A stretch of 61,592 nt of DNA from Candidatus Woesearchaeota archaeon (lineage in GTDB: Archaea > Nanobdellota > Nanobdellia > Woesearchaeales > WJIZ01), in contig WJIZ01000042.1 of the NCBI GenBank assembly GCA_014729995.1, positions 1 through 61,592 of the forward strand, given 5' to 3'. Numbering within the stretch: the stretch's first letter is position 1; the number at the start of each line of letters is the position of its first letter. Of this stretch, positions 59,573 to 61,592 are shown piece by piece. The position numbers and the translations under genes were made by a program. The notes under the pieces are model-generated. The model was given only the letters and a program-made list of their open reading frames with translations. It did not search any database and was not told the origin of the DNA.

Positions 59573-59758
59573 ATTGTGTTACCTAATGGCTTTCCTATAA
59601 AAATATTTCTATGCTTGTTTTGTAAAGGGAGTTATTAGTTTACCTTTCAGTTTTTACAATGATACAGTTTGTTTTATTGATGATTTCGTTTATTGGTTTA
59701 TTATTGGATGATAAAAATAAATAAACCAGTTTTCTCGCCCCATTCTAAATATAAATTT

Positions 59759-60015
59759 CTTTTACGAAGTAAAAGTGTAGATGTCCATTAGGACTAAGGA
59801 ACTCCCCCTTTAATTAAAAACTCCCCTATTAAAAATATATTTCTCCGAAGGAGACTATATGTGCGTAGCACTGGAACTCCCTAACTTTACCGTCTAAGAA
59901 ATGGAAATTTTATTGTATTTAACATCGGGCTAAGCCCTGTTAAGTTCTTTGACCCTACAACGTGGGGTCAAACTGCGTCCGCAGAGTTTTTTCGGGAGCG
60001 TTCCATCGAGCGAAC
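59759..60015. ncRNA. Dense cluster of short hairpins, possible structured RNA
   Basis: No gene is found here, but at least seven hairpins are. They are CTTTTAC-GAA-GTAAAAG (59759), TCTCC-GAA-GGAGA (59842), GTGC-GTA-GCAC (59861), TTAACA..GGGC-TAA-GCCC-TGTTAA (59919-59943), TTTGACCC..GGGTCAAA (59948-59972), CTGC-GTCC-GCAG (59973-59984) and GTTC..GAAC (60000-60015). Repeated GAA triloops and the TTAACATCGG hairpin recur in the element at 60.9 kb. Strand and transcription are unknown. Confidence 0.4.
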
Positions 60016-60042
60016 AAAGTGAGCAATCAAGAACAAATATAA

Positions 60043-60857
60043 AGGGGGACATTTCGTCTAATAAACTATTTCAATATTTGAAAGATTCTCCTTTGGATTC
60101 TAATTCAGATTTCATGTTGATATATGATTTATATCTCACGTCATTGTCTAGCGATTTAAATCTATTGAGAGTTTTCAAATTTGCCAAATCAAATTCTCTC
60201 AGAATTTTACCATTTTTTATCAGTGTGATTCTATCAAAAATGAATTTCATTTCTTGAGGATTTTTGTTTAGGGCATTCCATACATTTTGAAATTTTGCGT
60301 TATTCGAATAAGCATTTTGTTTCATATTCCATATGGTGGTATGCCATATCTCTTTTTGATAGGTTTGGCATTTAAATCCTTGAATTGAGTTTAAAGTAGA
60401 ATCTATTTCTTTTTTTAATGCAACCAAAGGTTTAGAAGGTTTAACTTCTATTGCTAAAACTTTTCCACCAATGGGTGTATCAAATTTGATATATTTTCCA
60501 GTACCAATTAGATTGCCTGGTTTATGAAAAGATTGTGCTTTTCCAAAAATGATTTTCTCAAGCACTTCGATAAGTTTAAGTTCGTTATTCGATTCAATGG
60601 GTCCAGCTACAGTAATGTGAGGCACATAATGATAGGAATAATGTGCGATTCTGTAATGTCTTTTTAATTCGAAATGACGATCCAAAAAATATTTTTTAGG
60701 ATATCCTGAATATCGATATTCCAGCAAGTATGAATTTATCGGTTTTTGTCCTGCAAATAATCTCTTTAAAAAATTGAATATTATATTCATGATTGTTATG
60801 AAATTATTTAACTGAATAATAAATCTTCTGATTTATCTTTAAGAAATGTCCCCCCTT
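60043..60857. repeat. Inverted repeat framing the 2H phosphoesterase gene
   Basis: AAGGGGGACATTTC at 60042-60055 is complementary to GAAATGTCCCCCCTT at 60843-60857, with a one-base difference in the G run. The gene at 60071-60790 lies between the arms. Confidence 0.7.
60071..60790 (-). CDS. 2H phosphoesterase / RNA ligase-like protein
   Basis: The 239-residue protein has two HxTx motifs, PHITVAG (about 57-63) and WHTTIWN (about 149-155), about 92 residues apart. This is the 2H phosphoesterase signature shared by 2'-5' RNA ligases and cyclic phosphodiesterases. Both His-Thr pairs are intact, so it may act on 2',3'-cyclic phosphates or RNA ends. The gene is AT-rich and framed by its own inverted repeat, unlike the chromosome to its left. 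Confidence 0.75.
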   Translation of the reverse strand: MNIIFNFLKRLFAGQKPINSYLLEYRYSGYPKKYFLDRHFELKRHYRIAHYSYHYVPHITVAGPIESNNELKLIEVLEKIIFGKAQSFHKPGNLIGTGKYIKFDTPIGGKVLAIEVKPSKPLVALKKEIDSTLNSIQGFKCQTYQKEIWHTTIWNMKQNAYSNNAKFQNVWNALNKNPQEMKFIFDRITLIKNGKILREFDLANLKTLNRFKSLDNDVRYKSYINMKSELESKGESFKY

Positions 60858-60897
60858 CCACCATTTAGCCACTAAAAATTATTGAACTTAACATCGG

Positions 60898-61017
60898 AAT
60901 TCCTGTTAATTGCCCCGAGCCGATAGGCGAGAGCGCAGCGTGGTCGAGGAAAACGAAGTTTTCCGAAGAAGTTTGAGATTTGGGCGCATTTCAGAAGTTG
61001 GTGTCGTAACTAATAAG
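60898..61017. repeat. 120-bp direct repeat, copy A
   Basis: This sequence is identical over 120 bp to 61473-61592. It contains GCC-GATA-GGC and GGAAAAC-GAA-GTTTTCC hairpins, then TTTGAGATTTGGGC and AGAAGTTGGTGTC. The TTAACATCGG..CCTGTTAA hairpin at its left edge (60888-60909) matches the one at 59919. Confidence 0.95.
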
Positions 61018-61036
61018 TGGTTAAATAACCAAAAGA

Positions 61037-61044
61037 TTTATATA
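61037..61044 (+). promoter_or_regulatory. TATA box of the terminal small gene
   Basis: TTTATATA lies about 28 nt before the ATG at 61067. Just upstream, TGGTTA and TAACCA (61016-61030 region) form a short inverted repeat that could bind a regulator. Confidence 0.5.
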
Positions 61045-61066
61045 CTAATAATATATTCTTTTATTT

Positions 61067-61393
61067 ATGGTAAATCAGAGTAAAGTTAATGATCCTAGAA
61101 TGTGGAAAAAGTGGAGAGCTTCTGGAGCAGTTGGGACTATTGATGATGCAATAGCTAGACAATTAGTAAAACAAGGAGATTTGAAAGTTAATGCAATTGG
61201 CGAACACTATGCTGGACCAGCAGAAGGTTATTCAACTTTATCACTAGGTGAAAGAACTGTGAATGAAGGTCCTGATTGGAAGGTAACTGAACCAGTTTTA
61301 GCGGTATTAGCTCCAGGATATAATTATCAATTAGGACAGGAACTTTCAAAATTACCTAAAGGATATAAACCTTTAAGAACTGTTTTTGGATAA
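61067..61393 (+). CDS. Hypothetical 108-residue protein between repeats
   Basis: The protein has no recognised family. It has a helical start (DPRMWKKWRASGAVGTIDDAI), a Gly/Tyr-rich middle and a C-terminal segment ending KGYKPLRTVFG. Codon use is AT-rich. It has its own leaderless promoter and lies between two exact copies of the 120-bp repeat, in the position of a cassette gene. Confidence 0.6.
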   Translation: MVNQSKVNDPRMWKKWRASGAVGTIDDAIARQLVKQGDLKVNAIGEHYAGPAEGYSTLSLGERTVNEGPDWKVTEPVLAVLAPGYNYQLGQELSKLPKGYKPLRTVFG

Positions 61394-61398
61394 ACTAA

Positions 61399-61592
61399 GA
61401 CACCAACTTCTTTTTAATAAATCTTCAAATTTTAATTTGACTATTGTTTAGCCCAAATCTCAAATTGCAATTAATTCCTGTTAATTGCCCCGAGCCGATA
61501 GGCGAGAGCGCAGCGTGGTCGAGGAAAACGAAGTTTTCCGAAGAAGTTTGAGATTTGGGCGCATTTCAGAAGTTGGTGTCGTAACTAATAAG
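61399..61592. repeat. Long imperfect hairpin element with repeat copy B
   Basis: GACACCAACTTCT (61399-61411) pairs with AGAAGTTGGTGTC (61568-61580), and inside it GCCCAAATCTCAAA (61451-61464) pairs with TTTGAGATTTGGGC (61547-61560). Two perfect nested stems (13 and 14 bp) thus close a ~190-nt element. Its right part (61473-61592) is the exact second copy of the 120-bp repeat. The layout resembles the R and L arms of an integron attC site, though the consensus RYYYAAC/GTTRRRY is only partly met. Confidence 0.75.

Follow-up and report, generated by a model that had tools for sequence, protein, structure and literature searches.

Introduction

Integrons are the best-known platform for gene capture and, to our knowledge, those described depend on the integrase IntI with its I2 domain. 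Xer-type sites are also known to delimit gene modules, namely the pdif modules of plasmids such as those of Acinetobacter. Escudero et al. (2016) described the joint origin of I2 and attC sites as a chicken-and-egg paradox (PMC4792948). In CTXphi-type integration, XerCD acts on a folded single-stranded phage site (PMC4792948). Archaeal integrons with a true IntI were reported by Ghaly et al. (2022), six in 6718 genomes, together with attC clusters, some of them in Nanoarchaeota (PMC9668308). Since that search required an IntI-specific domain, recombinases of the kind presented below would be passed over (PMC9668308), and some of our sites may already be within its list of attC sites. In the open-access journal literature we found no Xer-based archaeal cassette arrays.

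The window, by which we mean the whole stretch of DNA analysed (61,592 nt), is contig C42 of an archaeal MAG (G000; 1.33 Mb, 97.9% complete). A first-pass annotation had read its end as a possible gene-cassette array of an undescribed or archaeal integron-like kind, perhaps one left without an integrase, perhaps another system altogether. We propose that the window probably ends in an integron-like cassette array which would be run by a XerA-derived tyrosine recombinase without I2, on folded attC-like sites. The host is a DPANN archaeon, probably of the Woesearchaeota group, a label that we take from named relatives with such a recombinase, among them a MAG of Woesearchaeota whose locus L115 has an attI-like site.

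Results

Two cassettes at the end of the window

Positions 59729-61592 form a piece of a cassette array, in which two cassettes are bordered by the sites S0, S1 and S2, all of them minimal sites without an inner stem; features lie on the forward strand unless stated. The non-coding stretch before S0 (59729..59919), which ends at that site, has 76-81% identity to L082:13050-13282 and L094:15334-15588, both of which end at TTGTATTTAAC; it is homologous to the cassette trailers of another family (G101:C7) and the sequence just upstream of the recombinase in a third (G050:C2). S0 (59915..59947) has the minimal attC-like form tattt-TAACATCGGGCTAAGCCCTGTTA-agttc and is one of three matches to the minimal-site pattern in the genome. 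Cassette 1 runs from TAA^C to TAA^C (59923..60891), and its ends, GTTAagttc at 59939-59947 and gaactTAAC at 60884-60892, are complementary, with a 5-nt R-box match. Its gene, on the reverse strand (60071..60790), encodes 239 aa of the 2H phosphoesterase / 2'-5' RNA ligase superfamily (PF13563, E 5.8e-6, 26.9 bits against a cut-off of 27). S1 (60884..60913), of the form gaact-TAACATCGGAATTCCTGTTA-attgc, follows and matches the minimal-site pattern at 60889-60908. Cassette 2, from TAA^C to TAA (60892..61474), is likewise closed by complementary ends, GTTAattgc at 60905-60913 and gcaatTAA at 61467-61474, again with a 5-nt R-box match, and carries an open reading frame of 108 aa (61067..61393) without known family, for which no significant Pfam or PADLOC match was found. 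S2 (61467..61488; gcaat-TAA-TTCCTG-TTA-attgc) is shortened, without the 8-nt CATCGGAA of the S1 centre. PADLOC gave no match on either window cassette, and an Rfam scan of the region returned a single chance match (E 0.84).

The two small genes are each framed by their own inverted repeat, as had been noted at the first pass. The arms at 60041..60055 and 60843..60857 (15 nt, 93% complementary, score 12) enclose the 2H gene, and those at 60993..61008 and 61396..61411 (16 nt, 94% complementary, score 13) the 108-aa frame; scores of at least 12 are seen in 3.6% of mismatched pairs. Both cassettes (2/2) have 5 nt complementary beyond TAAC/GTTA, against a background of 3.5%. Taken together, these features of the window exceed chance.

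The last 120 bp of the contig (61473..61592) repeat the left end of cassette 2 (60898-61017) exactly. This copy stops at the contig's last base, where an assembly-graph overlap, a tandem duplication and an excised circle would all look alike. The hairpin of about 190 nt that the annotation had placed after the last gene does contain a perfect 14-bp stem (61451-61464 / 61547-61560), but it consists of the right arm of cassette 2 pairing with the second copy of its own left arm. The 120-bp element exists as an exact repeat, but a role as general spacer was rejected, since it belongs to cassette 2 as its left end. It was also rejected as a genome-wide element, the strong matches in the genome being its own two copies.

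Other array fragments in the same genome

Across the 1.33-Mb genome there are exactly three matches to TAACATNGG-N(0-12)-CCTGTTA, namely C42:59920 (S0), C42:60889 (S1) and C5:287, all in array fragments and in the same direction. Contig C5 (L011) starts inside a cassette, which is followed by the site at 287 and by a further cassette that has framing arms, the R boxes GTTAgtttc/gaaacTAAC and an ORF of 86 aa; a tyrosine recombinase of 281 aa lies 0.95 kb downstream of the array, with a 74-aa ORF in between. Given that C5 starts and C42 ends within arrays, two contigs of G000 end inside arrays, and joining them by synteny failed, guaA and purM not being adjacent in family members. The order recombinase-purM is conserved in G001, and the G000 recombinase may be a housekeeping XerA. 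No clear attI-like site was found in G000; elsewhere in the window's own family, a recombinase in L195 (G005:C27, 1-600) is closely preceded by a cassette end and a dif-like candidate attI (TAACAACTATTAAGCGAG). G000 also encodes a second PF00589 recombinase, a shorter one, at C18:8620-9123. Similar enzymes (about 220-230 aa) recur across the order in many genomes and, in the cases seen, do not lie near arrays.

Related arrays across the class

A BLAST search with the element recovered related pieces in many genomes of the order, often on contigs carrying a tyrosine recombinase. These pieces lie beside other small genes and are not all part of one transposase-bearing element, so that the integron-like reading of the first pass stood. 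In L027 (G041:C6), the array from which the rule was read, some ten small genes lie between sites whose geometry is fixed, namely nnnnnTAA-CATNGSNN-TTANNNGAAGTT, a variable middle, the partner arm and TAA-6 nt-TTAnnnnn; most of the related sites are longer hairpins, of 56-230 nt, than the minimal sites of the window. The cargo of L027 is mixed, as is usual for integron-like arrays: its cassettes encode an OmdA/YdeI protein, a DUF2683 protein, a cytidine-type deaminase and an RmlD-type epimerase, along with several proteins that belong to no family.

With up to 2 mismatches, the site pattern is present in 211 of the 353 genomes of the order (about 60%); under a stricter pattern it is found in 101 of the 371 genomes that sample the phylum, among them members of other families in the class, with 2 matches in the reversed control. 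The reversed control at the looser setting gives a few matches per genome, and single loose matches therefore prove little, as opposed to clusters on one strand. In 0.94 Mb of archaeal loci, chosen partly by site or recombinase matches and without selection for strand or side, there are 112 sites, against 0 in the reversed sequence and 1 in 1.15 Mb of bacterial loci. One genome has as many as 50 sites: in G249 about 50 are spread over many short contigs (C204, C211, C112, C31 and others), several of them at the very ends, a picture like that of a large array broken up during assembly. One cassette is common to two families (G010 and G041; L014/L027), with 84% nucleotide identity that is broken near the cassette ends. 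Viral contigs of IMG/VR contained no exact match to the strict site pattern, which makes common carriage by phages unlikely.

The cassette unit and its hairpin

Tandem cassettes with complementary ends of the integron type (R''/R') are found in these arrays. Among 59 neighbouring pairs of sites, the 5 nt after GTTA of one site and the 5 nt before TAAC of the next are all complementary in 71%, as against 2% within the same site (n=111) and 3.5% for random sites. Some neighbouring sites have no such R-box match (L081, parts of L093), and these may be exceptions or may have unrecognised sites between them. When sites are compared pairwise, the similarity of the hairpin tracks that of the right flank (0.38-0.61), whereas the left flank stays at 0.22-0.23 against a background of 0.234. 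The hairpin is thus owned by, and moves with, one cassette, and both observations together define the unit as hairpin-GTTAnnnnn-leader-gene-trailer-nnnnnTAA with its boundary in TAA^C, where the exact cut would be made. A boundary inside TAA^C, which reads G^TTA on the opposite strand, implies that the two ends of a cassette complement each other but not those of its neighbours. The flank comparison rules out a boundary G^TTA in the motif-forward orientation, in which the hairpin would move with the left cassette. The framing repeats are cassette-specific too, a score of at least 12 being reached in 85% of own cassettes and 3.6% of mismatched ones (n=47), which generalises what the annotation had observed in the window.

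The 11-bp inner stem of the sites is 0.940 Watson-Crick paired, compared with 0.604 when partners are shuffled (maximum 0.649; n=110). In the 5' arm, position 6 pairs at no offset and position 7 is not in register, and three attC-like hairpins folded as DNA have a two-base bulge at positions 6-7. The AA after the 11-bp stem had been a candidate for extrahelical bases and was rejected: DNA folding often pairs it in a nested hairpin, so that the extrahelical claim is limited to positions 6-7. Cassette ends are rich in C-GNA-G DNA triloop hairpins (65 vs 2.05 expected), and RNA GNRA tetraloops are not enriched (1 vs 0.6 expected). Hairpins of the d(GCGAAGC) type are known for their extraordinary stability in DNA (PMC4686876). 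The covariation, the unpaired bases and the GNA minihairpins without enrichment of RNA tetraloops favour single-stranded DNA as the probable substrate of recombination.

The array recombinase and a dif-like site before it

A tyrosine recombinase, absent from the view of the first pass, is encoded on contig C5 of G000, and many relatives have one next to their arrays. At the 14 loci with both sites and recombinase, all 38 of 38 sites are upstream of the recombinase and on its strand. The genes themselves have no such polarity, and the idea that they point towards the recombinase was rejected, 23 pointing against it and 18 towards it. At many of these loci the last cassette adjoins another kind of site, which is dif-like: nnnnnTAA-CACCTA-TTAAACGAAG. 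This site, conserved in at least 11 loci and for the most part 60-180 nt upstream of the recombinase start codon, we take for a candidate attI. There are also 30 copies of a further motif, CACTGGAC (often GCACTGGACA), in the 1.02 Mb of archaeal loci searched, 16 of them within 400 nt upstream of nine recombinase genes: in G000 at L011 (C5) 1610-1700 and L012 (C33) 250-340, and also in L013, L027, L028, L041, L044, L045 and L098. The motif may serve as an operator, or else as an accessory site for binding.

The array recombinases have no IntI I2 (patch III) insertion. Their spacing from KGxKDR to HxLRHS is 57-68 residues, that of other bacterial Xer-type enzymes mostly 65-76 and that of IntI 106-108. 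On the IntI profile TIGR02249 they score 165-213 bits, with a cut-off of 265 and 476 bits for bacterial IntI; no match over the cut-off was found in 99 relatives, nor any positive in 14 control genomes. In the AlphaFold model of the L115 enzyme (mean pLDDT 82.9, pTM 0.62), the segment from strand 158-161 to helix 194 holds no extra helix besides 164-176, and the solved structures closest to the model are an archaeal Xer (4a8e) and IntI4 (2a3v); by sequence, the L027 enzyme ranks IntI4 first among structures, in two stretches.

In the tree, IntI forms its own clade (100/100) and the array recombinases fall outside it, in three clades among archaeal XerA, one of which has ten members and is purely array-linked (100/96). 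This interleaving with XerA implies that some of them may be housekeeping XerA that are merely nearby; G072 has a separate XerA without array and an array enzyme in one genome. On the XerA profile NF040815 (cut-off 220 bits), L027 (225.3), L016 (221.8), L013 (222.5) and L115 (224.2) score over the cut-off and L011 (217.9), L012 (212.3), L030 (209.9) and L094 (196.7) under it, with 259.6 bits for a XerA without array (L031).

Discussion

We propose that the attC-like hairpin would fold in single-stranded DNA into a Xer/dif-like site with an R box, a centre with two extrahelical bases and the 11-bp stem. The XerA-derived recombinase without I2 would then recombine the folded hairpin with the dif-like, double-stranded attI near its own gene, so that incoming cassettes would be inserted next to attI and departing ones excised as circles. 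That this recombinase acts on these sites is what we infer; no recombination event, circle or rearranged allele was seen in the sequences compared. The recombinase being Xer-like, a different system was the better half of the guess made at the first pass. A broader hypothesis, to which we would give even odds, is that DPANN archaea of this class evolved their own integron-like cassette system on single-stranded DNA from XerA, independently of IntI and without I2; it would be a present-day example of folded attC-like sites in the absence of the IntI-specific domain.

Three other explanations have to be considered. It could be supposed that XerA uses duplex dif-like sites on either side of the cassettes, as with the pdif modules of Acinetobacter plasmids, and that the hairpins are inverted binding sites instead of folded strands, a reading that we find rather doubtful. 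It would account for the TAA...TTA arms with their 6-nt centre, which are dif-like above all at attI, and for recombinases that are XerA relatives without I2. Yet the stem varies in sequence while its pairing is kept and two bases stay unpaired, DNA-specific GNA hairpins are enriched and the cassette ends pair mutually; the covarying stem, the GNA hairpins and the pairing ends are expected of a folded strand and not required of duplex sites. A remnant of a canonical integron (CALIN), in which ordinary attC cassettes are moved in trans by a true IntI and the nearby Xer is irrelevant, appears unlikely. The layout does match integrons, and attC clusters without IntI have been described, some in Nanoarchaeota (PMC9668308). 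Against it stand the lack of a TIGR02249 match over the cut-off in the 99 relatives, the strict polarity of sites towards a Xer-type recombinase with a dif-like attI before it, and the core triplets, whose partial fit to RYYYAAC/GTTRRRY had already been remarked in the window: the halves of the consensus fit 39 and 44 of 109 related sites and both fit in 16. Hardly credible, finally, is that the small genes are surrounded by RNA structures, be they terminators or processing signals, and that the contig end is an assembly artefact. The stems could form in RNA, and the 120-bp repeat breaks off at the contig's last base, which is also how a de Bruijn overlap behaves. Yet an RNA model does not predict R boxes that match from one site of a cassette to the other but fail to match inside a site; the arrays are polarised to the recombinase, RNA tetraloops are not enriched and there is no Rfam match beyond chance.

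If the reading of an array run by a XerA-derived recombinase on folded sites is true, the combination of such sites with a Xer recombinase lacking I2 would make the question of a joint origin directly testable, and with it the question of how integrons could have arisen. It would also be a route to accessory genes for the tiny genomes of DPANN archaea, and array loci may explain breaks in some DPANN assemblies.

Compared with integrons (IntI, attI and attC; PMC9668308), the arrays described here share tandem cassettes of small genes with one folded site per cassette, R-box complementarity of the cassette ends, a boundary in G^TTA, an adjacent recombinase with a candidate attI-like site, and a cassette order read outwards from the recombinase. 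They differ in a recombinase without the I2 insertion and outside the IntI clade, in R boxes of 9 bp (nnnnnTAAC/GTTAnnnnn) instead of RYYYAAC/GTTRRRY, and in the fixed 8-nt centre, the 11-bp stem, the dif-like attI, the genes in either direction and the many GNA minihairpins. With XerA/dif and other single-recombinase Xer systems (archaeal XerA, XerH/difH) they have in common the recombinase family (closest structure 4a8e; NF040815) and the TAA-6 nt-TTA geometry at attI, but here these are linked to multi-cassette arrays with hairpin sites. The pdif modules are similar in that gene modules lie between Xer-type sites; in the present arrays, by contrast, each cassette takes its hairpin along and has two mutually complementary ends. 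CTXphi is comparable in its use of a Xer recombinase without I2 and of a folded single-stranded substrate, which for the arrays is the likely one; the phage stem has no extrahelical bases, the phage encodes no integrase and there is no cassette array, while in the archaeal loci the sites are arrayed and the recombinase is resident.
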